Below, in pieces: positions 1 through 55,100 of a stretch of 64,000 nucleotides of DNA. Each line of letters starts with the position of its first letter. Within the stretch, counting starts at the first letter, position 1. Origin of the DNA: Aldrovandia affinis (taxonomy: Eukaryota; Chordata; Actinopteri; Notacanthiformes; Halosauridae); NCBI GenBank assembly GCA_029706075.1, contig JAINUG010000049.1:124001-188000 (forward strand), given 5' to 3'. The notes under the pieces were generated by a model. The model had not been told where the DNA came from. It ran no database searches and saw nothing but the letters and a program-made list of their open reading frames with translations. The position numbers and the translations under genes are program-made.

Positions 1-668
1 ACATTGACCGTTGAGTTTGACACTGTTTCCATGTTTGTCGCGACAGTAACCACACTGTTGTCATTCCATAAATGTTCCTTTTTCAACAAGGAATTTAGAT
101 TCCCCTCTCTCCCTTCTCTTGAATCTCGGAGCTGGTGTCAGCGGAACACCAAAGAGACGGTTTTCACAGAGTGTGCCACAGCTTCCATAGCCCCTCTTGC
201 ACATCTCATCAATCAATGACAAACTTGTAAAGAGATTATCATGATAAAATTTGCATCCAGGTGGGACATTAGCTCTCTCAGCCAAGCCAAGAACAACACT
301 CGGTCCAGTTTCAGCCAGTCGTGTGTAGGTCCCTGCATATGGGTCAATCTGATAGACAAAGCCGGATGATGATGCAAGGCTCCATATCTTGTAGCCAAAG
401 CGTATTGGCTTTCCTTTGATAAACTGCTTGCATCCATGTCTGCCGAAGTACTCGATCATCATCTCATCCACAGACAGGTGTTCCACAACTGGCACTGCTT
501 TGTTGATTTTGTTGAGCTCCTCAAAAATTGGACATACCTTGAAGAAAGGGTCATCCGTACTTTTGGTCCACCACATGTACAGAAGCCATGATGTCATCGA
601 ACCTGTTTCTGCGCATGGCTGCTTTTATTCTGGCATTGGAGAGATCTTCATCTTCTGACCAGAGCTTA
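1..668 (-). mobile_element. piggyBac-family transposase remnant, cut by window edge
   Basis: Minus-strand translation from about 668 down to base 1 reads as a PGBD/DDE_Tnp_1_7 transposase core. Visible blocks are DEDLSNARIKAAMRRNRFDD, then TDDPFFKVCPIFEELNK, then LSVDEMMIEYFGRHGCKQFI (which carries a conserved catalytic Asp), then KFYHDNLFTSLSLIDEM. The frame changes near 555-565 and again near 75-90, so at least two frameshifts are present and the copy is dead. The C-terminal part continues off the left edge. No terminal TTAA is visible. It lies below prdx5 exon 5 in what should be prdx5 intron 5. Family assignment rests on recognised motifs only. Confidence 0.8.
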
Positions 669-4800: not shown

Positions 4801-7800
4801 GGTCCCACAGTTGACAGTGCATGTCAGAGTAAAAACCAAGCCATGAAGTCCTAGGAACTCTCCATAGACCTCCGAGATAGAATTGTGTTGAGGCATAGAT
4901 CTGGGGAAGGGTATAAAAACATTGCTAAAGCATTGAAAGCACCCAGGAGAACAGTGGGCTCCATCATTGTGAAATGGAATAAGTTTGAAACCACCACAAC
5001 TCTTCTTAGAGCTGGCCGCCTGGCCAAACTAAGTAACCGGGCAAGAAGGGACATGGTCAGGGAGGTGACCAAGAACCCAATGGCCACTCTAAGAGAGCTT
5101 CAGAGTTCCTCTGCAGCGATGGGAGAACCTGGTAGAAGGACAAACATCTCTGCAGCACTCCCATCAATCAGACCTTTATGGTAGCACTTGGCATTCAGGC
5201 CAAAAATTTCAATTTGTGTCTCATCAGACCGGATAATCTTTTTCCTGATGCTCTTAGAGTCCTTTAATACCATTTGGCAAACTCCAGGTGGGCTGTCATA
5301 TGCCTTTCACTCAGAAGTAGCTTCCGTCTAGCCACTACCATAAAGGTCTGATTGATGGGAGTGCTGCAGAGATGTTTGTCCTTCTACCAGGTTCTCCCAT
5401 CGCTGCAGAGGAACTCTGAAGCTCTCTTAGAGTGGCCATTGGGTTCTTGGTCACCTCCTGACCATGTCCCTTCTTGCCCGGTTACTTAGTTTGGCCAGGC
5501 GGCCAGCTCTAAGAAGAGTTGTGGTGGTTTCAAACTTATTCCATTTCACAATGATGGAGCCCACTGTTCTCCTGGGTGCTTTCAATGCTTTAGCAATGTT
5601 TTTATACCCTTCCCCAGATCTATGCCTCAACACAATTCTATCTCGGAGGTCTATGGAGAGTTCCTAGGACTTCATGGCTTGGTTTTTACTCTGACATGCA
5701 CTGTCAACTGTGGACCTTACATAGACAGGTGTGTGCCTTTCCAAATCAAGTCCAATCAATATAATTAAGCACAGCTGGACTCCAATGAAGGTGTAGGCCC
5801 ATCTCAAGGATGATCAGAAGAATTGGACAGCACCTGAGCTAAATATACAAGTGTCACAGCAAAGGGTCTGAATACTTATGGCCATGTGATATTTCAGTGT
5901 TTCTTTTGTAATAAATCTGCAAAAATGTCTACAAGTCTGTGTTTTTCTGACAATATTGGGTGCTGTGTGTGCATGAACGAGGAAAAAAATGAAATTAATT
6001 GATTTTAGCAAATGGCTGCAATATGACAAAGAGTGAAAAATGTAAGGGGGTCTGAATACTTTCCGAACCCACTGTATATGCCATCATTGACTAATTTGGA
6101 TGGATGTACAGTTACACAGTGTTTTTTTTTTTACTTCTTTAATTACCGGGTTACAAATTGAGTACCTTTGAGCACCCAGGGGTAAAGGCTCCAGGCACAG
6201 CAAAAAGAATCCCCTTCTTCCCCTTGAAGAGCTGGTCCATAGACACCTTGTTCCCTGGGTTATCCTCCTGCACCTCAACAGCCGGCAGAGATTCTCCAAC
6301 CTGAGAGAAAGCCAGGAGAGCACACCTGTTACTACAAAATTTGACACGGTGAGAAAATAGAGCAACGAGACATTCAATGGGTTCTCCTGACAATTACTGC
6401 AATACATCTACAATACAGGACATTGATAGTAAGGGATTGAGTAGGGAGGTGGAGAAAATTCGGAATATTGGGAAGGAATAAATAGCAAGGCTTTTCTTAT
6501 ACTGAAGGGCTAAAATTCTGGGGTCCATGGAAGGCTCTTTTACAATGAGACCTCTGCTCTTCTGATTGTTGCAGGGATACATACATATATATACAGTTGC
6601 AAGAAATGTGAACCCTTTGGAATTACCTGGATTTCTGCATAAATTGGTCATAAAATGTGATCTGATCTTCATCTAAGTCACAACAATAGACAAACACAGT
6701 CTGCTTAAACTAATACCACATAAACAATTATATGTTTTCATGTTTTTATTGAACACAACATGTAAACATTCACAGTGCAGGGTGGAAAAAGTATGTGAAC
6801 CCCTAGGCTAATGACTTCTCAAAGAGCTAATTGGAGTCAGGAGTCAGCCAACCTGGAGTCTAATAAATGAGACGAGATTGGAGGTGTTGGTTAAAGCTGC
6901 CCTGCCCTATAAAAAACACACACCAGTTTTGATTTTGCTATTCTCAAGAAGCATTGCCTGATGTGAACCATGCCTCGCACAAAAGAGCTCTCAGAAGACC
7001 TACGATTAAGAATTGTTGACTTGCATAAAGCTGGAAGGGGTTACAAAAGTATCTCTAAAAGCCTTGATGTTCATCAGTCCACGGTAAGACAAGTTGTCTA
7101 TAAATGGAGAAAGTTCAGCACTGTTGCTACTCTCCCTAGGAGTGGCCGTCCTGTAAAGATGACTGCAAGAGCACAGCGCAGAATGCTCAATGAGGTGAAG
7201 AAGAATCCTAGACTGTCAGCTAAAGACTTACAGAAATCTCTGGCACATGCTAACATCTCTGTTGACGAATCTACGATACATAAAACACTAAACAAGAATG
7301 GAGTTCATGGGAGGACACCACAGAGGAAGCCACTGCTGTCCAAAAAAAACATTGCTGCATGTTTGAAGTTTGCAAAAGACCACCTGGATGTTCCACAGCA
7401 CTACTGGCAAAATATTCTGTGGACAGATGAAACCAAAGTTGAGTTGTTTGGAAGGAACACACAACACTATGTGTGGAGAAAAAAAGGCACAGCACACCAA
7501 CATCAAAACCTCATCCCAACTGTGAAGTATGGTGGAGGGGGCATCATGGTTTAGGGCTGCTTTGCTGCCTCAGGGCCTGGACAGATTGCTATCATCGACG
7601 GAAAAATGAATTCCCAAGTTTATCAAGACATTTTGCAGGAGAACATAAGGCCATCTGTCCACCAATTGAAGCTCAACAGAAGATGGGTGATGCAACAGGA
7701 CAACGACCCAAAGCACAGAAGTAAATCAACAACAGAATGGCTTCAACAGAAGAGTCCTGACCTCAACCCGATTGAGATGCTGTGGCATGACCTCAAGAGA

Positions 7801-10800
7801 ACGATTCACACCAGACATCCCAAGAATATTGCTGAACTGAAACAGTTTTGTAAAGAGGAATGGTCCAAAATTCCTCCTGACCGTTGTGCAGGTCTGATCT
7901 GCAACTACAGGAAACGTTTGGTTGAGGTTATTGCTGCCAAAGGAGGGTCAACCAGTTATTAAATCCAAGGGTTCACATACTTTTTCCACCCTGCACTGTG
8001 AATGTTTACATGTTGTGTTCAATAAAAACATGAAAACATAATTGTTTATGTGGTATTAGTTTAAGCAGACTGTGTTTGTCTATTGTTGTGACTTAGATGA
8101 AGATCAGATCACATTTTATGACCAATTTATGCAGAAATCCAGGTAATTCCAAAGGGTTCACATACTTTTTCTTGCAACTGTATATATACACACACACACA
8201 CACATTCAAGATGGTGTGATGATATCTTTCTCAGATGTCAGTCATGTGATACAAAAATACTAATAATTTTATCAAATATATTGTACACATTTCATAAAAT
8301 GAACACTACAAACAGTTATCTACTGATATGGTGAAAATAGACACACCAAATTCAAAATAAACACAAATAAATACATGACGATTCATACAGTCACACCACA
8401 ACGTGCACTCTCACCTATAGAATTCCACACAATGACGGCAGTGAATAGGAACATCCCTTATCTTTCATACAAGCTCTAACAGTTAAGTCAGCACTCTGTC
8501 AACCAACGCAGCAGCACAGCAAGCACCATATCCAGGGGTGTAGTTCACATTTCAGAAGTGGTAGGGACAATTTATGGGGGCGATCTAGGGGTCCTCCCCC
8601 CAGAAAGATTTTTGCTTACCAAATGCAATAACCTGCATTTTTACAATATTTAGCATGACTGCACCTTTAGTATTGAATATCTTTTTAGGGGTCCAAGAAG
8701 CTAAACTGCTGGAGCACAATTTTTTTATGGGATTATTATCATTATTTTCCAACACTGCACATGCCACTATCCTCTTATTAACTTGAAAATTGCTCAATAT
8801 TAGATGAGATCTTATAGCATGCCTCTGTATCACATTTGAATGGAAATTAATTTTTTAAAAGACATCTCCAACCTTCAATATGCCTTTGCCCGAAAAAAAA
8901 GCATATCAAATTCTCCTAATGACATAGATCCGAATGGCATGTCTGTATATTCTTCAGTTAAATTGTGAAGGGTAGCTTATTGAAATGAAATATTGAAAAC
9001 TTTCTGTTAATCATGCACGTTATTACTGCATATTGCCTTGAACCTCTAGATGGCAGTGTTGTACAAAGTTCCTGTAGTTATGGTGGCCCTGTATGCATTA
9101 CATTTTACATTTACATTTTAGGCATTTATCCAGAGCGACTTACACAATTTACATTTCTTTACATACAATCCATTTATACAGCTGGATATTTTACTGAAGC
9201 AATTCAGGTTAAGTACCTTGCTCAAGGGTACAACAGCAGTGTCCCCACCTGGGAATTGAACCTGCAACCTTTGCGTTACAAGCCCAGTTCCTCAACCATT
9301 ATGCTAACACTGCCGCCTTGACCCACTGAACTAAAAATAATAATAAGAGCACTCTTTTGATCTAGTAAAATAGCTGTTATCCAGACTTATTCATGAGCCC
9401 ATACAATATGCAGAGGGTATAAAAGTATTCACCTCCTTTCACATATTTTTCACATTTTATTTTATTGCCTCATGGAATCAAAATTGATTTTATTGGGGTT
9501 TCTTGCCACTGATCAACACAAAATACTCTACAATATCAAATTTAAAAAAAGACAACTCTAAAGCTTTTTCTTCATTTATTACAAATAAATCATGTATGAT
9601 GACATTAATAATTAGCAGATTTTCACACTATCCCTGTGATATTTTAAGGAGTTTACATAAAACAAAACATGGTCCTTTAAGTGAATTAGCTTACATGAAA
9701 TACATTTAAGATTCATAATTTGGAGCTGCTGCTTGGGCTCCTCCATTATTCTCACACAGTCCCTGGCACAGGTATTGGTGCACACATTTCCCATTAATAT
9801 GCAGTGAATTAGTAGTGAGTTATTAGCTGGATATCCAGACATGAGTGCCTGTTTTCTAACTTATATCGCTACAGTATATACTTGTATAGCTTTAGTTACA
9901 TAAATTAACTCAATTATCTAAATTAGCAAGCTGATATATTTCAGTCCATGGTTCATGAGCTGGATAGCTTGCGGCAGTTAAGCAAACAGCGGAGTTGAAA
10001 CATTCAACTGTGCTAAAGTTTGCTAATTAGTGGGGCAGATAACCACAACGATTGTGCATTTTGTGATAAAAGCATCAAATTTGGTACACATGTAGCCAAA
10101 GACATTCCAAAAAGATTTGGATGTGGAGCCATCATGAATTTTCAATGTGTCGCCCATGGCAACCATTTTTTCAAAATGGCCACCAGATGACCACAACAAT
10201 TGTGTTTTTTCTGATAAAAGCATCAAATTTGGTACACATGTAGCCAAAGACATTCCAAAAGATTTGGATATTGAGTCATCATGAATTTTCAATATGTCGC
10301 CCATGGCAACCATTTTTCCAAAATGGCCGCCAGTTAACCACAACGATTGTGCATTTTCTGATAAACGCACCAAATTTGGTACACATGTAGCCAAAGACAT
10401 TCCAAAAAGATTTGGATGTGGAGCCATCATGAATTTTCAATGTGTCGCCCATGGCAACCATTTTTTCAAAATGGCCACCAGATGACCACAACGATTGTGT
10501 TTTTTCTGATAAAAGCATCAAATTTGGTACACATGTAGCCAAAGACATTCCAAAAAGATTTGGATATTGAGTCATCATGAATTTTCAATATGTCGCCCAT
10601 GGCAACCATTTTTCCAAAATGGCCGCCAGTTAACCACAACGATTGTGCATTTTCTGATAAACGCATCAAATTTGGTACACATGTAGCCAAAGACATTCCA
10701 AAAAGATTTGGTTGTTGAGTCTTCATGAATTTTCAATATGTCACCCATGCAACCATTTTTTCAAAATGGCCGCCAGTGGGCACCAGTGACAACTGTTTTC

Positions 10801-28256: not shown

Positions 28257-31200
28257 CTGGGAGAGGAGGGCGAGAGGTCAGAGCCTGGATGTCTGGAGAA
28301 CAAACTTTTATGGATGCCAACTTCTGGTATTAACAAGACCTAAAATTTAAAAACGGCAATTATTCTCAACCTCTTTAGGGTTTTCTGGAAAAAATTTCAA
28401 AAAAAAGCCGACACCAACGTTACCATTTCTATTTGCGAATCACAGCATTTCTGCAAAAGCAATGTCACTCCAGGTCTTAATGGGTTGAGACCTTATGTAC
28501 AGCTGAAGCAATGCAATATGAGATAACGTGAGAGTGGACGGGCCTGGACAGTGCCTGGTCTGAACCTGCGTTGCACATAAAGGCTGGCGGTTGTCCCGGA
28601 TTCTGTGGTATGACAGGAGCTAGTCTCTGTAGCCCAGATGGCATTCACACCACGGTACCATTTATATTGCATTTATGCAGCTCATGTGAGGTGTGAACAC
28701 ACAGCCTTTCAGGGTAGTCATATTGACAAGAATGCCACCAAATTCTCTTACAGAAAAATACGGCAGTGACTGAAATGACATCGTCTTTGGGAATGGACCT
28801 GCGCATAACCAACAATTCTCTCTCTCAATTTAACCATTTCTAGAGTGTCAATGGTTGATTATGCATGACCACCTGGGGACAACAGTAGCTTAGTCTCAAA
28901 TGATTGGTTGTGAACTGTAATTGACGGGAGCATAGAACTATGGCCGATTAGTTACCTGAGTTGGTGAGAGCGATGGCTTTGAGCATGACAAACTCCTCGC
29001 GGTCCAACTGCAGGGCCCGGTACCGTCGGGCCAGCTGGCTGATGGCCGAATTGAGCTCGGTCAAGCCAGCCAGACTGGACAGCTCTTCGTCGAGGACAAA
29101 GTCCTCGGCGAAGACGATTTCGTCCTCGCAGCCCAGCGAGCGGAACGCCACGCCAAGCACCAGCACTTCCAGCCACACGGACTGCAGCACAGACATCTGG
29201 TCCGCCAGCGACAGTGAGAGGAAGCCTGTGGACGGAGAGGGGGCGTGGTCAGTGAGAGAAAGCCTGTAGAGGGAGAGGGCGTGGTCAGTGAGAGGAAGCC
29301 TGTGGAGGGAGAGGGCGTGGTCAGTGAGGAAGCCTGTGGAGGGAGAGGGCGTGGTCAATGAGAGGAAGCCTGTGGAGGGAGAGGGCGTGGTCAATGAGAG
29401 AAAGCCTGTGGAGGGAGAGGGCGTGGTCAGTGAGAGGAAGCCTGTGGAGGGAGAGGGCGTGGTCAGTGAGAGAAAGCCTGTGGAGGGAGAGGGCGTGGTC
29501 AATGAGAGAAAGCCTGTGGAGGGAGAGGGCGTGGTCAATGAGAGAAAGCCTGTGGACGAAGAGGGCGTGGTCAGTGAGAGGAAGCCTGTGGAGGGAGAGG
29601 GCGTGGTCAGTGAGAGAAAGCCTGTGGACGGAGAGGGTGTGGTCAGTGAGAGGAAGCCTGTGGAGGGAGAGGGCGTGGTCAGTGAGAGGAAGCCTGTGGA
29701 GGGAGAGGGGGGCGTGGTCAGTGAGAGGAAGCCTGTGGAGGGAGAGGGCGTGGTCAGTGCGAGGCAGCCAGTGAGAGGAAGCCTGTGGAGGGAGAGGGCG
29801 TGGTCAGTGAGAGGAAGCCTGTGGAGGGAGAGGGCGTGGTCAGTGAGAGGAAGCCTGTGGAGGGAGAGGGGGCGTGGTCAGTGAGAGGAAGCCTGTGGAG
29901 GGAGAGGGCGTGGTCAGTGAGAGGAAGCCTGTGGAGGGAGAGGGCGTGGTCAGTGAGAGGAAGCCTGTGGAGGGAGAGGGTGTGGTCAGTGAGAGGAAGC
30001 CTGTGGAGGGAGAGGGCGTGGTCAGTGAGAGGAAGCCTGTGGAGGGAGAGGGCGTGGTCAGTGAGAGGAAGCCTGTGGAGGGAGAGGGCGTGGTCAGTGA
30101 GAGGAAGCCTGTGGAGGGAGAGGGCGTGGTCAGTGCGGGCTGCCAGCGACAGTGAGAGGAAGCCTGTGGGCGGAGAGGGCGTGGTCAGCAACTGTGAGAG
30201 GAAGCCTGTGGGCGGAGAGGGTGTGGTCAGTGCGGGCTGCCAGGCGTGCTCCACAAAGTGTAAGAAAGCGCTACGCTGCCCCATGTCCTTCCATCCCAGG
30301 GTTTCCCGCAGCCTGAGATGGAAGGACAAGCAATTTGGTGAAAATCTGAAAAATGTCTACATTTAATATGCCAAGAATCCATTTTAAAGTCAATTGAAGG
30401 GCTCAAAAAAAGATTAAATAGTGAAATGTGTAGTATTAATAGAGTAGTACGAACAGAGGTCAGCTGGCTAATAATGTGTATAATGGGTATATGAACTGAA
30501 AACAACAATCCTGATCTGTGCTTACACAGTAACTGATAACCGGGGTTAGCTTGTTAATTATACATTGCCATAAACAACAGATGAAGGCATCAAAGATTTC
30601 CTTGAATAATCAATAGTGAGCCAGCTTGAGTGAGCCACCTACAGGAAACCCTACATCCCTTTCACACTCTAGCCTCCTTCCCACCCTCCCATCCACCCCC
30701 CCCATCTCACCAGGGATGTGCTTGGCCCAGCCAATGATGACGACGAGCTCGCGGTCGGCCAGGTCGCACAGCGTGGTGAGGGTGCGCAGCACCGTGTCCG
30801 GCTGCAGGGGGTCGGGCATGGCGAAGAGCTTCTCCGGCTCGGCCATCACCAGGTGAGACACGATGATGTTCGAGGAGCCTGGGGCAGGCAGGCAGGCAGG
30901 CAGGCAGAGTGTCGGTTACATTTTCTTTCAGTAAGCATTAACCAGTAACGCAGGAGGCTGGGCTGGCTTTTATAGCAGTAAACTGCCGATTCCCCCCCCA
31001 CATATTTTCCCTCAAATCGAAATGCCCAATTTGTGTGTTCATACCCAACACTGCAACCTGTCAATTCGAGAGAGCGCAGACAGGCACGCGCTCTCCTCCG
31101 ACACGTGATGCACACTCTCAATTCAGCAGCCAGAAAAGTATTTATTCAAATAAATAAAATACGGGGATTGTTCCAGGTGAACATGTTGACACCAAATCCA

Positions 31201-33929
31201 ATAGTTATACAACAACTTACCATATAGCGGTGTGTGCAAGTAAATCACTAACTGGCTAGCCACTACCATAGCCATAACTCAATTAAACTAGCTAGCTAAA
31301 GTTTTTTCTTCAAGCATCTACCAACGCTACTCCCAGGTGGAATATTACAGCGTTTTACTTACATTACAAAGCGGCTTACTGAAATGTGACTTTTGGTTTC
31401 AATCACGTACATTTGCAGTTCAAACTCTCAAAATGACTCCTTTCTCAGTAGCTGAAGTAGCTTTTTTAAATTATTTTTTAAATTACAGTTGGAGTTAATT
31501 CTGTAATTAATATAACCAGAGACTTCAAACTTAGCCCTGAGGTCAGGTGGGGGTGCTTTTCATGCCACTAGGCTTATTCTTGAAGAAAAATCTTCTTTCA
31601 TTCGTCGATCTATTTAGGCCAGCCTTACATTGCTTTCCGTCACTGCATCCTGAGCAATAAACCAATTAGATTTTTTGCTAACCAGCTGCTCTTGCAAATT
31701 CTAATTCAAAAGGCCTCATTCCTCACCTCTCTCACCCTCTTTCCTCTGGGGCACAGAAGGTGGACTCTGGTATGTTGCGCTCTCCATCTCCGGCCGCCTC
31801 TTGTACTTCTGTCTCCCCCCCCTCACACGGTCCAGACGTACCCCTGTGGAGGATGAACGGTGTTTTTAGCATGTTTAACAATAAAAGGTGCCAAAGGTGT
31901 TAAAATGACCAGGCATTTGTGCATTTTGAAATATGCAGACACATTTTTTTTAAAGAGCCAATAATGACATGATTGAGTATATATTATGGGTATTTTGAGT
32001 CTATGGACACACATTGAGGACATCAAGCTGCCTTCGAAACCTATGAACTCAGAACTAACAGTGATTAATGGGCTGTAGACATGAGCGTGCCAAGTGAAAC
32101 TTAAATGATGCAGATGTGGCCACGGTGTGACCGGTCTGAACATGTGGTTACTTTAGGGCAACGCAGTGTGCGGACTCTCACCCTCTTTCAGCATGCCCAC
32201 TTTGAGGCACTTGGTGAAACGGCAGGCCTGACAGGCCTTTCTGCGCCTCTTGGTGATCTCGCACTCGTTGGATGCTGGGCAGCTGTAGTCAATGTTACCT
32301 GAGAGAAGGAGAAGGGAAAGAGGAAGATGAGAAATAAAATTTAAAAAAGAAGCGGGCCAAGGTGAGTCAAGAGGCTGGCTTTTGTTTGGCTTCCCTCTGC
32401 TACATGGCTTCCAGTGTCATTCTAAGTGTCACCAGCATTCTCCCATTGTATAAACACTGTCACCAGTCATGACAGTATACAGAAATTTCATCCAAGAAAC
32501 GTCTCTTGACTGTGTAAATATACAGTACCAACTACTATTGCAAACGGGTGGAAAGCTTCGAATACATTTTCATTGGAACTTTGGTTTGGGAATTTTGCCC
32601 ACCAATAAAAGCATATAAAATGTTTATTTTATTTTATTTATTTTATTTCTACAGGTCATGTTTTACTAACAATCATGAAATACTAACAAAGTGTTATTTC
32701 ATATATATTTTAAAATATATAATTTAGTAATATAATTTAGGATGTAATTATTGTATTCCCTATATCTTTATTCCTTCAGGCTTGGTTTGTTTTTATTATC
32801 AGAAGTTCTGTGTGTCTGAAAGACCTTGTCCTCCTGAGGTGGATGAGAGGATGAGCGGTTGGCTCCCCCTATTGGTGATGCAGTGTTGTGCATGCACAGC
32901 TCATGCTTCCATCATATGATCTTCAAGAAAATATTTAGTCAGAGCATACTACCTGCTACAATCGGATCGATCAACCGCAATTCGACAGAGACATGTTTTA
33001 TGCCAAAAGTTTTAGAACACCCCCATTTTTACAGTTTTTACTGAAATGTAAGCAGTTCAAGTCCAGTGAATAACCTGAAATGGTACAAAGGTAAGCGGTA
33101 AACTGCCAGTGGGAAAAATAATGTGGACTGGACTTGAACTGCTTAAACTTCCAGAAAATGGGGGTATTCTAAAACGTTTTACCATTGTTCAAAGACTAGC
33201 TAGCTAGCTAACACTTGCCATTTCAACAGAGGCTGAAAAGATGATTTAATCTGTTGATTCTGTTAAACAGACTACAACAAAATGTAAAAGCCCAATTAAA
33301 TCCATACTTCCAACTGTTGGAATTTGAATATGGATAGTAATGTCCCCCTTTATTTAAACACATAGTACATAGACTATTTTTTTATATACATTTCTTTTTT
33401 TGGGGGTGTTGGTGATTTTGATTTTGTTAAAAGAACATTAGTTGGATGTTACATAATAAGTTCAAAATAATCAAAAAGCCTTTTTTCCCATTTGTATAGA
33501 ACAGCATGATGTGTCCGACGCTGAAAAGAGGGGTGCAGCTGACTCACCCTGGATGGTCCTCTTAAAGAAGGCTTTGCAGGCCTCACACGATGCTACGCCA
33601 TAGTGGTACCCCGACGCCACGTCCCCGCACACCAGGCACAGTCGTTTGGGGAGCGTGCTCAGGGTGTACTTGCACCGTCCACCCCCGCTCCCCGTTGAGC
33701 CCTCTTCTACCGCGTCGATGCCCTCGTCTTTGAAATGGCAGCGCAGGGGTGGGGTGTAAAGGGGTGGAGAATAGCGCCCGGCGCCCCCACCTCGGTTTCC
33801 TCTGCCGCCGCTTTGGGATGAATCCGAGGACGCCCCCCCGGGGCTGACCCGACCCCCACCTCCTCCCCCCTCTGGACTGCTGGGCTCTGCCTTGATGTGC
33901 AGGTCGGAACGCCTCTCCCTGGAGGACAT
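28003..33929 (-). CDS. esrra: Estrogen-related receptor alpha (esrra)
   Basis: Orphan nuclear receptor that activates mitochondrial and oxidative-metabolism genes through TNAAGGTCA sites with PGC-1 coactivators. Coding exons: 33548-33929, 32182-32298, 31736-31843, 30711-30878, 28956-29225, 28003-28256; all junctions are phase 1 and the product is 432 aa (human 423). N-terminus: IKAEPSSP (residues 12-19), a phospho-dependent sumoylation motif, then a Gly/Ser-rich stretch. DNA-binding domain: C98, C101, C115, C118 (P-box CEACKA) and C134, C140, C150, C153. Ligand-binding domain from about 203 with the [16 protein letters not shown] signature and a C-terminal AF-2 helix [13 protein letters not shown]. 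The ATG is preceded by a splice acceptor 4 bases upstream, so the 5' UTR is spliced on. Downstream trmt112 converges on it. Confidence 0.97.
28956..29225 (-). CDS. esrra: esrra exon 5 (LBD helices 4-8)
   Basis: 270 bp, phase 1 at both ends. Encodes [40 protein letters not shown] and [15 protein letters not shown]. Its acceptor (ccctccacag at 29226-29235 on minus: ...ccgtccacag) borders a minisatellite that repeats this same acceptor and the first bases of the exon. Confidence 0.95.
29226..30240. repeat. 36-bp minisatellite of esrra 3' splice sites
   Basis: About 26 tandem units of gtcagtgagaggaagcctgt + ggagggagagggcgtg lie beside exon 5. On the transcribed strand each unit is a pyrimidine tract ccctctccctccacag followed by GCTTCCTCTCACT, the first 13 nt of exon 5. 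Units are 36 bp (a few 34-38). Variants include gac/gag and c/t changes. Edge units near 29757-29775 and 30137-30160 also carry extra exon-derived bases (gccagcgacagtgagag), pointing to exon 5 as the source. Confidence 0.95.
30711..30878 (-). CDS. esrra: esrra exon 4 (LBD helices 1-3)
   Basis: 168 bp between tgccccag and CCTG|gtgaga. Encodes (G)[40 protein letters not shown] and IP, with the first part of the nuclear receptor LBD signature. Confidence 0.95.
30884..30905. repeat. (CAGG)n microsatellite
   Basis: About five ggca/cagg units next to the exon 4 acceptor of esrra. Confidence 0.85.
31736..31843 (-). CDS. esrra: esrra exon 3 (hinge)
   Basis: 108 bp. Encodes (G)[20 protein letters not shown] then [31 protein letters not shown] is the C-terminal extension of the DNA-binding domain that contacts bases 5' of the half-site in ERR monomer and dimer binding. 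Confidence 0.95.
32182..32298 (-). CDS. esrra: esrra exon 2 (second zinc finger)
   Basis: 117 bp, phase 1 at both ends. Encodes (G)[19 protein letters not shown] then [19 protein letters not shown] with the four second-finger cysteines. Confidence 0.96.
33003..33183. repeat. Mariner/Tc1-like MITE
   Basis: Inverted ends aaagttttagaacaccccca and (minus) aaaacgttttagaatacccc, with a nearly symmetric interior (agcagttcaagtccag / ctggacttgaactgctt). No coding capacity. It is in an esrra intron. Confidence 0.75.
33548..33929 (-). CDS. esrra: esrra exon 1 coding (N-terminus, first zinc finger)
   Basis: 382 bp, starting ATG TCC TCC AGG and ending CAGG|gtgagt. Encodes the IKAEPSSPE motif, a Gly-rich segment (about residues 20-55), [20 protein letters not shown] and [16 protein letters not shown]. 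The exon extends 4 bases upstream of the ATG to an acceptor (tcctctgcag). Confidence 0.95.
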
Positions 33930-48791: not shown

Positions 48792-49164
48792 ATGCCTGCC
48801 TCAAAACCGCGGACAGTGTGGTTCACGCACCTGGCGGTGCTCCTGCTCGAGCTGGTTGGCACCACGCAAGGTTTCTCCACGTGCCAGTCTTTCGACTTGG
48901 ACGATTACAAGTCTAAGCGCATAGAGGCTGTGAGGGGACAGATCCTCAGCAAGCTCCGCATTCGGGGGACACCCGAGCCCGACACGAGCACGCCACCCGA
49001 AGATGTGCCCCTAGAGGTGATGTTGCTCTATAACAGCACCCGAGAGCTGATGAAGGAGCGCGCGCAACAGGCAGAATCGGCCTGCGAGCGCGAGAGCAGC
49101 GAGGAGGATTACTACGCTAAGGAAGTGCAGCGCGTGGACATGCAGCCACCTAGGATTGATACCA
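48792..49164 (+). CDS. TGF-beta exon 1
   Basis: Signal peptide and start of the latency-associated peptide, 124 codons plus one base (ACC A|gtgagt). Contains [11 protein letters not shown] and [11 protein letters not shown], the straitjacket region that wraps the mature dimer. Confidence 0.95.
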
Positions 49165-52100
49165 GTGAGTCGAGGTTATGCGACGGGTGCATTTTAACCT
49201 ACTGCAAGGCTCCCCCCCTGTAGACTTAAGTGTGAGGAAGACTGTCCATGGAGCATTCAACAGAATTGTGATGTGTTCCTATTTTTCCTTGTTCATATGC
49301 TTCAATCATCCACTGTAGGATAGGCTCCAGGTTGTTACTCGTCGTCCTAGTAATCCAGTAAACAATTTAGCATGTTCTGTAACAATATAATTGCTGTTCA
49401 AATGTTTAACTAGTGGATGACACAATTTACAAAAATTGGCCTGGCACTCAAGAAGGGCTAAACTTAGGTGTTAGTGTGAAGAAGACAAAATTGAACCCAT
49501 TGCAATTCAATTGGATTGAATGTTCCCAGCACCATCATCTTTACTTGTTGCATGCGATTAGCATATTTGCTACTTGCTATAATTTATTTTATTTAGAAAA
49601 ATACTAAACTGATGTCACTTTGGTGTGCAGATAGCTAGGAGGAATTCATTAAATATTAGACTGAGATAATGTATTTCTGTCTCACTGTGTACTATCTATC
49701 TCTCATATACAGATGTGATCAGCAGTGGCCCCCCTAGCCCATATTTTCGGGTGTTGGGGTTTGATGTCACTCGGGTGGAGAGGAACTCTACTACACTTGT
49801 CAAGGCAGAGTTCAGGATCTACCGTGCACCAAACCCTCGGGCCCGTGCTTTAGAACAGAGGGTAGAGATATACCAGGTACACAACATGCAGTTGTGCACA
49901 AAACAACACAGAACTGAAGTGCTTTAGGCCTGACATTGCAGGAATTTCAGTTTTTTTGATATTATAAAACCTTTTGAATAAAAATGCACTGAAGTTTTGC
50001 TTTGCATGATATATAATCATTTTGGTAGCTTTTTTCTTTCTATGAAGATAGAGCTGTATCCCCTTTTCACTTTCATTTCCATGTTTTCATACTTTTCATA
50101 GCTATTGGAATTGTAGAAATAACATATACTGTCAACAAAATTATTCAAACCCTTGATAAAGATGACCAAAAAAAGGTTGTATAAAATACATGCTCATTTT
50201 GTATGCTCAAAAAATGAGAAATATATATTATTTATACTAATACTATTGCTCAGAGAAAAGTATTTTTTAACAAGTAATATTTATTATTTTATATATATAA
50301 AAGATATGTGTCATAAATATTCACATCCCTAATAATTATTTTAAATAAAATCCAACAAAAATAAATCAGCATTAACATTTCACCCTCTATAGTGTTTTAT
50401 GAGATGTGTGAATATATTGTGGGGATCTTTGACCATTCCTCCATACAGAATCTTTGAAGATCCTTCAGATTATTTTGTCTGCCCTTGTGGACTGCCCTCT
50501 TCAATTCAAACTACACATTTTCATTCGGGTTCAAGACTAGAGACTGAGATGGCCATTGCAAAACAGTAATTTTGTGGTCCATTAACCATTTCTTGGTTGA
50601 TTTTGAGGTATGCTTGGCCAGAAATTGATCTTTCAGCAAGACATTGATGAGGCTAAAATCTTTATCAAAGGTGTGAATAATTGGAGTTGACTGTATGCCC
50701 TAAGTGTATTAATGTATTAATACACATATTGTAAGTTGCTCTGGATAAGAGCGTCTGCTAAATGCTTAAAATGTCAATGTAAAATGTGTCTGCTTGTGTT
50801 TGGCTCTCCAGGACCAAGTTGTGTTGAACATCAGACACACAACTTTCCACATTTGACCAGTCACTAAGCAGAGTGCCTTGATGCACCATGTTTAAATAAT
50901 ATTGTAATGTATTTGCACAACTTTGTGTCTTTGTCTCCGTCTCCCTTTGCAAGCTGTTGAAGTCCCGTGATGCAACAGCCCCATCACAACGCTACATCGA
51001 CTCCCGAACTGTGCGTCCACGTGCCAAGGGGGCATGGCTATCTGTCGACATCACTGACACTGTCAAGGAATGGCTGACACACAGAGGTCAGGCACTGAGG
51101 TTTCAGAGCCAAGTGAACTTTCCCTGGTCGGGCCTGACATCTCAATAATCAGACAAGATGACATCACATTATTTTAAATGATGTTAAATGTTCATCAATT
51201 ATGAATATGTAACTTAAATTTGTTTTAATCATTACTCTTTTGTTTGGCAGGTATCCTTACCCAGGCTGACTGAAAAGCTTTAACATGCCTTATCTCACCC
51301 ATTTACACAGCATGATATTGTACTGAGGCAGTGCAAGTGAAATACATTGTTTGTTGGTTCATCAGCAGTGTCCCACAAATGATCAGAACCCACAATGCTG
51401 TAGTTCCAAGCAGGGCCATATCCAGGAGTTAAGAAATTGCCGAGGTCATGAGGCCTTGCCCCTCTAGGGGGGTTCATTACGAGAAATGTCACAAATAAAT
51501 ATTTTATGTAATCAGTCTACCCTTGTAGCTAATTCACTACAAGAGCAGTAGACTGTCATGATTTTATGAATGGCCACTGGAAATGTGCACTAAAATGTAG
51601 CTAGCTTTGTGCCTATCACCACTGTCAATGTATGCTACGTATACAACACGGAGGTCATGTCCTCAATGGTAGATACGGCAATGGTTTCAAGACAAGTTAT
51701 TTTACGACTATAACATACTGCTATACAAGTGAAAGTGAATGTCCTGTGTTCATTTCCCCCCCTTTTCTTCTCTTCCACATGCTCTTCCACATCTCTCTTA
51801 CTTGCTCCTTTTCCCCCTCACTTTTTCCTCACTCTTGCACTCTGATTTAATCAGATAGGAACCTGGGGCTGAAGCTGAGTGTCCACTGTCCTTGCTGCAC
51901 CTTTGTCCCTTCTACCAACAACATTGTGCCCAACAAGAGTGAAGAGCTGGATGCCCGCTTTGCAGGTTGGTGTGTGGTCAAGGTGATAAGGTTCAATGGT
52001 TCACAATCCCTACAAGAGTTGAAAAGTGCTGTTACAGTGCTCTCTAAGTTAAGCCATATATTATATGAAGGTTGCCAGTTTTTTCTTCTGACTGTGTGGC

Positions 52101-55100
52101 ACAGTATGATGGACTGGCTTTGTGGCCTCACTAGCAGCACGGGTCATATTGAAATAAGGATGATGGTGGGGGTGACATCAAAGATGGATACAGTTTAATA
52201 CTGTGTCGAGGTGTAACCCCTGTGTTACTAGTGTATTCCTGTTCACTCTCCCTCACAGGTATCGATGATGATTTAATCAAGCAGTTCAAGAAGCCAGGGG
52301 TGGTGAAAGGTCAGATAGAATTTAGCACCAAGACGCCACATCTTATTCTCACTCTACTGCCAAGTGACAGGCTGGAGAACCCTGCCAAGAAGAACCGCAA
52401 GAAGAGGGCAGCAGCTGACACCCCCACATGCTCCCGGTAAAATAATCTTAGTGTGTGAACATGATCAACTTTCTGTTATTAATATTCATATAGCCATTGA
52501 CCCGGTTTTATTTTTTATTTGTAAAATTTATTTCAGATTTTTTCCCCGTTTTTCACCCAGTTTGGTGGCCAATTGTACTCTCTATTTTTCTTCAATTCCC
52601 CCTCCCCCATGAGCCCAGCGCCTGCATCAATGGGACAAGCCGCTACCCCAGGGCCAGCAATGAACTGCTTCCTCTGAAACAGACCTCACCTATTTATTTT
52701 GCCCACAGGGAAGCCCTCCATGTTTCTCTGTGAGCTCGTGCTGGCTTCCCTCTCCCCTTCGCCAGGGGCAGACAGCCAATTGCTGCCTCTGAGCGGACCT
52801 CCCAGCCAAAGCCAGACTGGGCAAGCTGCACTCTGGGCGAGTGCCTTTACCAGTTGTGCTACCTGGGGGCAGCTAACTTTCTGTTATTAATATTCATATA
52901 CCCATTGACCAATGGTTATACCCTTGTTGGACTGATGTTTCACCAGAATGCCCTCAAGCTTATCTTGAATAAAAAAACGGCCCCTGTGACACCACCAGTG
53001 TATATAAATAAAACAAATGTATGTGTTTATGGGCAGCTTGTAAGTCATGGAGTATATGACACTGAAGGGATATCTCTGTACGTTTTTACAAGGGCTGTAC
53101 AAGTGTGTCTTTGTGATCATTTGTTCCTTCCATTTAGTAATGCCGATCAGGGTTGCTGTCTTCGATCCTTGTACATTGATTTCCGCCGCGACCTGAATTG
53201 GAAGTGGATTCACGAGCCCAAAGGCTACAAGGCCAATTTCTGTGCCGGAACCTGCCCCTACTTGTGGAGTGCAGACAATCATTACAACATGGTCAGTACA
53301 TCCCCACTCAAGTTAGTTTTTTGTACTCTATTGGGTCTGAGGATAGTGTATTAGGAAGGGACTTTCTTAATTTGCAATTTGGCAATGAAATATGTTTGCA
53401 CTTTAAATTACATTTAATAATTCCCCCCCAAGAATAAAACTATGAGATGTAATTGTTGACCTTTCTTTTGTGGGCCATGATTAGCTTGATCTTTTCTGGG
53501 TTAATGCACATAAAAAGACTGCTTCTTTTACATCAGCACAGGATTTCAGTTCAGATCCAGATTTCAACCTACTGGATAAAGATTTTATACATTCTTGGAC
53601 ATAGCTGACTAGATGTAGACTAAACCTATACCTTTTAAAAAAAATGTTTTTTTGTTGTTTTTTTTACAAAGAAGCAGTCTTCCATTTTTCACTGGGTTAG
53701 ATACATATTACAAGTTAGATAGAAGTCCAGCATATTTGACCTCTCAATGACACAATTGGGATATTGGGATATTTTTAAACAACACTACAGTAGCAATATG
53801 GCTTGTGATATGGACTACCAAACAAATAATTTCCAACATTATTTTATAGAAATTTGCATGATAATTGAAACATCTTTCAATTCCTCTTATTTATACATTT
53901 CTTTGTTTTAGTTACTGTCAACGTAAACTGAAACTTGAGTTCACACATTGACTTAGTGGTTAAGAGGGTTAACTACCACCGTTGCCCCCATTTGCAAACG
54001 GAAACGTTTGTCTCTCAAATTTTTATGACTAGGTTAGCAGTCGTCTTTACAAAAGTGATCCATTTTAGCCAGCAGTAGTAACCTACCTTGGCTAAATTGC
54101 TTGATTGGACACTTTCATAGTTTACAGTTTGCTGGTTTATGGCAATCTTTTCTAGCATCAAAAATAATTCCAACTTAATAACCGTTCCCATTGTGCAGCC
54201 CCTGAAAACGAAGGCAGAAGCTAATGGATTTTTGAGTACCATTTGCACCATACTTGGTGTCAGTTCTCTTGAAGCCAAAATACCCCCAAATGACCAAAGA
54301 ATAATCTTATCTTTTTTGTCAATTCTATTTTCTTCTTCTACACTCCTTTTGATTTCGAAACAAATGCTAATGCTACCTGAGCAACATTTACCTTGGTATG
54401 TTGTGATTGGCTGTAGTAAAAATTAATTTACTGCCTCCCGCGTGGCCCAGTAGTTACAACGTCCGACGCTGGCCACGGAGACCGGGGTTCAATTCCCCGT
54501 CTCGCCAGAGTTGGCTCTGGCGGCTGGGAGCGCCACCGGGGGCGGCGATTGGCTGTCCGCCCCAGGGAGGGGAGAGGGAAGCCGACATGAGATTCGCTGC
54601 ACATAAGAGTGGCCCTGCAGTATACTGGGTTACGGTTGATACTTGGGCGAGTGCCGTCTCGGAAGAGGCGTCCGGTCGCGTGTCGCTACTGGTTGCAGGA
54701 CTACAGCAGTGAACTCACATTACTAGGGGGGGATTGACTTAAATAGCAGGTATAATTGGCTACCAAATTGGGAGAAAATGGGAGAAAAATCAGAAACAAA
54801 AATGTTAAAAAATGAATTTACTGTGCATGTATAGAGTGTGTGTAACAATCACAAACTCTTGCCATTCAGACATCACGGATGTCCATATTGCAGTAACAAT
54901 AGCTTTGCGATATGTATCAATACAGTGAACTGCCTCTTCTCACAGCCCTGCCTGTCCCCTTGCTCTCTCCCCCACAGATCTTGCCTCTTTACAACAAGCT
55001 GAATCCTGAGGCCTCGGCCTCTCCATGTTGCGTTCCTCAGGACCTGGAGCCCCTCACCATTGTGTACTATATGGGCCGCACTCCTCGCGTCGAGCAGCTC

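Follow-up and report, generated by a model that had tools for sequence, protein, structure and literature searches.

Here we report that intron 4 of esrra, the estrogen-related receptor alpha gene, of Aldrovandia affinis, a deep-sea halosaur (Elopomorpha), contains a tandem array of copies of its own 3' splice site. The array was identified in a 64,000-nucleotide window of genomic DNA (contig JAINUG010000049.1, positions 124,001 to 188,000; coordinates below are those of the window). It is real, and is located on the minus strand at 29226..30228, where 26 copies precede the canonical acceptor of exon 5, the intron part of the latter being included in these bounds. We consider it probable, at roughly 70%, that the array represents a neutral minisatellite of the mirage type, i.e. 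a repeat placed over the intron 4/exon 5 boundary, with the canonical acceptor remaining dominant and leakage to the other copies being removed by nonsense-mediated decay (NMD).

The gene occupies the minus strand of the window with six coding exons (33929-33548, 32298-32182, 31843-31727, 30878-30711, 29225-28956 and 28256-28003), and all five introns are phase 1. Exon 4 (30711..30878, 168 nt) ends with CACATCCCTG, and exon 5 (28956..29225, 270 nt) starts with GCTTCCTCTCACTG, the 14 nt that are present in the 36-bp consensus of the array. The intervening intron 4 (29226..30710, 1485 nt, phase 1) is delimited by GT at 30710 and AG at 29227-29226. A protein search with the gene model recovered P0001, a 435-residue A. 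affinis protein labelled hypothetical in one source and estrogen-related receptor alpha in another, which is identical to the model if exon 3 is taken to end at 31727 and which joins exons 4 and 5 at the canonical acceptor. This junction, placed at residue 259 in a preliminary description of the same DNA (rightly so for a 432-residue model), falls inside the ligand-binding domain (LBD; Pfam PF00104, residues 238-404 of P0001, 100 bits, profile positions 12-202). The preliminary description placed it between helices 3 and 4 of the domain, in agreement with known ERR structures.

Structure and origin of the acceptor array

The array consists of many near-identical units arranged head to tail, as in minisatellites, and the unit covers the exon-intron boundary, as in mirages, with nucleotides of exon 5 plus the intron end and its AG. 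At a period of 36, Tandem Repeats Finder (TRF) returned scores of 933 (29212-29778) and 709 (29769-30135), both far above chance, with 92% and 98% matches. The array accounts for 1003 nt of the intron and 482 nt lie outside it, given the upper bound of 30228 that we chose (TRF ends at 30230 or 30243). A search that needed ACAGGCTT recovered 27 ACAG/GCTT acceptors, namely 26 upstream and the canonical one (exon start 29225), and the spacings reveal no skipped unit. The location and the 29226/29225 boundary given in the preliminary description are thus correct, as is its count of about 26 units before exon 5; the regular 36-bp spacing that it proposed is however restricted to 19 of the 26 intervals, the remainder being 42, 55, 38, 50, 39, 34 and 38. 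Fifteen distinct sequences are present among the 26 units, the consensus being represented by nine of them. Exactly the 14 exon-5 nucleotides shared with the consensus open 17 of the 26 units, congruent with the earlier view that the units copy the acceptor plus the exon start, for which 13 nucleotides had been claimed.

Each unit carries a branch-point-like YTGAC motif and a C-rich tract, together with CAG and some 14 nt from the start of exon 5. The motif, which may represent the branch point, is present at all 27 acceptors, where its A precedes the exon start by 22 to 25 nt; 12 to 14 of the 15 positions from -20 to -6 are pyrimidines throughout, each tract being followed by CAG. The sequence features of a functional 3' splice site (branch-point-like motif, tract, AG and normal spacing) are consequently found in 27 of 27 cases. 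The canonical acceptor is ordinary among the copies, with 13 of 15 pyrimidines and a run of 10, compared to 13 of 15 and a run of 12 in the common unit. RNA structure beyond that of shuffled sequences was not detected in the proximal array (281 nt, z +0.87). The stretch 30230-29226 contains 29 AG, 27 of which are the acceptors, and five GT. Since the 36-bp consensus is devoid of GT, new introns or exons are not readily generated by the array, and their creation was rejected as an explanation. The array is known from one haplotype, and copy-number polymorphism between individuals is likely.

The units of unusual length hint at how the repeat arose. Nearest to the ancestral duplication is the 55-bp unit at 30109..30163 (minus strand), the first 22 nt of which equal exon 5 (GCTTCCTCTCACTGTCGCTGGC) and are followed by an intron end that, from CTGGC on, resembles the intron directly upstream of the array, the two parts being joined at the 5-bp CTGGC match. 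Deletion of exactly 19 bp, between two copies of CACTG, converts this unit into the 36-bp consensus, letter for letter. These identities are directly visible, and from them we infer the order of steps: the exon 5 start and the intron end would have been duplicated as a 55-bp unit, 19 bp would have been lost, and the resulting 36-bp unit would then have multiplied through slippage or unequal exchange, with no selection on the frame. The 42-bp unit (30164..30205, minus strand) probably goes back to an independent shortening of the 55-bp unit, and the 50-bp unit in the middle of the array (29733..29782, minus strand) is probably a relict of it. There is no evidence of selection keeping the splice motifs, as zero changes in the seven motif sites has a P of 0.24 with six variable sites among the nineteen 36-bp units, or 0.19 if seven variable sites are assumed, in what is a weak test. 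Derivation from a dispersed repeat was rejected, because all 13 genome matches of the unit fall within the array, in a search that skips common words and scores the best candidates only. When TRF was run on 21 stretches of this contig lying outside the window, 210 kb in all, six loci with a period of 15-100 and at least four copies emerged, one of them exceeding 300 bp. Minisatellites thus seem common enough for some to fall on exon boundaries by chance, as a rough estimate for one contig.

A genome search with the protein identified a second esrra copy on contig C69, around 484028-487263, the intron 4 of which measures 128 nt and is free of tandem copies. The difference in intron size between the copy on C69 (C69:485500-486250; 128 nt) and the present gene (1485 nt) exceeds the array itself, considering the 482 nt of non-array intron in the latter. 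Five further ESRR-like loci were found on C1767, C2322, C25, C1867 and C224, labelled according to 49-60% exon-5 identity. Tandem acceptor arrays were present in none of these six loci within the 399 to 633 nt examined ahead of exon 5, a stretch that covers the whole intron for C69 and 429 to 633 nt, not necessarily the whole intron, for the other five. Sharing of the array by ancestry with other ESRR genes is therefore not supported. Over exons 4-5, the two esrra copies differ by a dN of 0.029 and a dS of 0.403 (NG86), or 0.024 and 0.853 (YN00). The few amino-acid changes mean that the protein is conserved, these pairwise values being silent on which of the copies is constrained.

Two further structures were observed in the introns of the gene. 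A stable hairpin at 30284..30328 (minus strand), recovered by RNA folding, is located about 55 nt upstream of the array in intron 4, with a 17-bp stem formed by TGTCCTTCCATC and GATGGAAGGACA. The 84-nt stretch that carries it (30345-30262) folds at -35.1 kcal/mol with a z of -3.56, and the hairpin is possibly the remnant of a mobile element. In intron 1, a stretch at 33001-33188 (minus strand) has matching inverted ends (around AAACGTTTTAGAATACCCCCATTTT and AAAATGGGGGTGTTCTAAAACTTTT), by eye resembling a miniature inverted-repeat transposable element.

Predicted products of the upstream acceptors

To assess the outcome of upstream splicing, exons 1-4 were joined in silico to each acceptor, followed by exons 5 and 6, and translated. 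Twelve of the 26 upstream acceptors are in frame (29333..29732, minus strand; exon starts 29732 to 29333, offsets 108 to 507) and add 169 to 36 amino acids. The other 14 lead to a premature stop, so that the earlier designation as in-frame copies applies to less than half of them. The two nearest to exon 5 (29226..29299, minus strand; exon starts 29299 and 29263, offsets 74 and 38) are out of frame, and their use ends translation 105 nt short of the exon 5-6 junction. Harm is thus to be expected from the copies closest to the exon. Splicing to one of the twelve distal acceptors (29782..30205, minus strand; exon starts 30205 to 29782) places the stop within the array itself, 798 or 884 nt ahead of that junction. 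As a rule, NMD acts on stops located more than 50-55 nt before the last junction, and the transcripts from these 14 acceptors are expected to be NMD targets. Moreover, five of the seven odd spacings break the frame by differing from 36 by a non-multiple of three, where about two thirds would do so without frame selection. A coding repeat or regulated length isoforms would call for a unit and indels that preserve the frame, which is not what these five spacings and the 14 stops display.

The exon-5 frame is indeed open across the nearby units, as the preliminary description had it, in an open reading frame (ORF) of 309 codons that runs through the array into exon 5. The 12-residue blocks that it predicted as additions do however occur in pure form only in products longer than +36 amino acids. 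In the +36 form, the shortest in-frame product, most of the peptide is instead derived from another frame of the unit, because indels of -2 and +2 flank that stretch. The zinc finger of this form is practically unaltered (108.1 compared to 108.2 bits), whereas its LBD matches the Pfam profile with 85 bits, compared to 100 in the canonical form, and only from profile position 35 (canonically 12), after the insert. The reduced match and shifted start suggest that the insert interrupts the conserved core of a domain that is still recognised, and the LBD would presumably be damaged by it. A Pfam scan of the array ORF was dropped as a sign of damage, since this ORF lacks exons 4 and 6.

We then searched for traces of upstream-acceptor use in proteins. 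The array peptide yielded no match at an E of 0.001 among 7993 candidates scored from 5.77 billion proteins, many of which are predictions, making this weak evidence. In a local control at the same database size, ten of the 12 hypothetical in-frame isoforms were scored and gave E values from 1.4e-9 (+36 amino acids) to 2.8e-82 (+169), and the canonical form gave no match to the array peptide. The exon 4/5 junction has the usual spacing in 117 of the 120 ERR homologues listed (116 by a fixed pattern, plus P0120), and an array-like insert is present in none of the 120. The remaining three, P0025, P0034 and P0037, are models that lack or alter the junction residues, without such an insert.

Precedents, competing explanations and significance

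In amphioxus, minisatellite-like tandem repeats over exon-intron boundaries, called mirages, have been described for Adh3, BflGb6, BflGb9, TnC and PGBD5, the last two being additions of the second report (PMC3087553, PMC3902484). The BflGb6 mirage comprises the intron 3' end and the exon start in units of 150-160 bp, with 6 and 3 units on two haplotypes, and somatic instability is reported for that of Adh3 (PMC3087553). Reverse-transcription polymerase chain reaction suggested that regular splicing is undisturbed (PMC3087553), and the same is stated in the second report (PMC3902484). The esrra array resembles BflGb6 in repeating the intron 3' end plus the exon start, and many amphioxus units also carry splice signals. 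It differs by residing in a teleost nuclear receptor gene, with 36-bp units and 26 extra copies; RNA and length polymorphism were examined in amphioxus, whereas the esrra array is known from sequence.

A vertebrate repeat whose unit holds a real splice site is present in intron 18 of human ABCA7, a variable number tandem repeat with a 25-bp unit that includes the exon 18 donor and with 23.7 repetitions in the reference genome, where retention of one unit in an isoform shifts the frame (PMC5954066). That repeat is located on the donor side and accompanied by population and RNA data, in contrast to the acceptor-side array of esrra. As in NAGNAG and other tandem acceptors, several sites compete for one exon; those are however a few nucleotides apart and usually served by one common branch point, whereas the esrra acceptors are mostly 36 nt apart, each with its own branch-point-like motif. 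Tandem duplication carrying splice signals is also known from intron gain (Zhuo 2007; Gao and Lynch 2009, as cited in PMC3087553), but the esrra array offers acceptors and hardly any donors. Tandem repeats that alter gene structure have furthermore been described for human segmental duplications (PMC2812944). Searches of the open-licence literature, judged by title and abstract start, yielded nothing nearer on repeats over splice sites, including in fish or nuclear receptors; as far as these searches reach, acceptor-side mirages seem not to be confined to amphioxus but to occur in a vertebrate as well.

In the neutral mirage that we favor, every copy would be a self-contained acceptor, and the 3'-most one would be preferred through cross-exon recognition, the enhancers of the full exon and how far the copy lies from the exon-5 donor. 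When another copy is occasionally used instead, the transcript would mostly be an NMD target; in a minority of cases, a protein carrying extra residues between LBD helices 3 and 4 would result. The gene would survive on sufficient normal mRNA, possibly buffered by the second esrra copy. Several points weigh against this reading. The canonical acceptor does not have the best sequence, its pyrimidine run being shorter, and the classic duplicated-acceptor experiments of Lang and Spritz in 1983 reportedly favoured the upstream copy. P0001 may be homology-guided and is thus weak evidence on splicing, and the 90% clustering of the protein database could conceal the shortest (+36) isoform. On the donor side, an ABCA7 isoform retaining one repeat unit has been observed (PMC5954066).

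A leaky cluster, where entry at upstream copies followed by NMD would lower Esrra output, copy number would tune dosage and the second esrra would compensate, appears rather unlikely. It would be congruent with the 14 acceptors, the two nearest included, that place a stop 105 nt or more ahead of the last junction, with YTGAC in all 27 acceptors and upstream ones that are not clearly weaker than the canonical site, and with the copy on C69; the amphioxus mirages are however reported without disturbed splicing (PMC3087553). Equally doubtful is a natural acceptor ladder, in which 27 near-identical self-contained sites would compete such that the Esrra dose would depend on how many copies there are and on their phase (12 in frame, 14 leading to NMD), or LBD-broken forms would arise, the second copy freeing this one to drift. 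The preliminary description had left the choice between tolerated splice noise and length isoforms plus copy-number polymorphism, of which noise fits better. Purposeful use of in-frame acceptors, inserting 36 to 169 residues between helices 3 and 4 and yielding, for example, DNA-binding forms with a broken ligand domain, is highly improbable: the 12 open in-frame acceptors, the 309-codon ORF and the retained zinc finger of the +36 form are outweighed by the frame-breaking odd spacings, the out-of-frame nearest acceptors, the 14 premature stops, the canonical junction of P0001, the lack of array-bearing proteins in the database search and the weakened LBD match. Finally, repeats are difficult to assemble, and an amphioxus mirage seemed aberrantly assembled in the draft genome (PMC3087553). 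An artefact affecting the repeat or its count is nevertheless improbable, considering the 15 distinct units, the relicts of odd length that are congruent with a stepwise origin, and the 5.86-Mb contig in which the array lies, although the copy number may still be off.

With its 27 near-identical sites, the array is an unusually clean natural experiment on how splice acceptors are chosen, where junctions would show whether position, transcription order or exon proximity is decisive. Exclusive use of the canonical site would mean that 26 nearly identical competitors are disregarded in vivo, and would strongly favour cross-exon recognition rather than first-come or 5'-to-3' selection. Were upstream copies to be spliced, a metabolic receptor would be tuned via NMD by a repeat that possibly varies between individuals. 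Muscle RNA-seq of A. affinis exists (SRR5306085; Transcriptome Shotgun Assembly GFJD00000000; PMC5968573), and could, coverage permitting, answer an old splicing question.

Other features of the window

Outside of esrra, the window contains a second tandem repeat at 10036-10776, with five copies of 148 bp at 91% matches or, alternatively, a 295-bp period at 96%. ORFs at 48792-53354 (plus strand), beginning some 15 kb away from the start codon of esrra, presumably belong to a TGF-beta precursor, with the start at 48792 and a mature-domain-like piece in the ORF 52854-53354. Two mobile elements are presumably represented as well, by a Tc1-type-transposase-like sequence in two pieces at 6970-7962 (plus strand) and by a fragment of a piggyBac-type transposase at 61-597 (minus strand).
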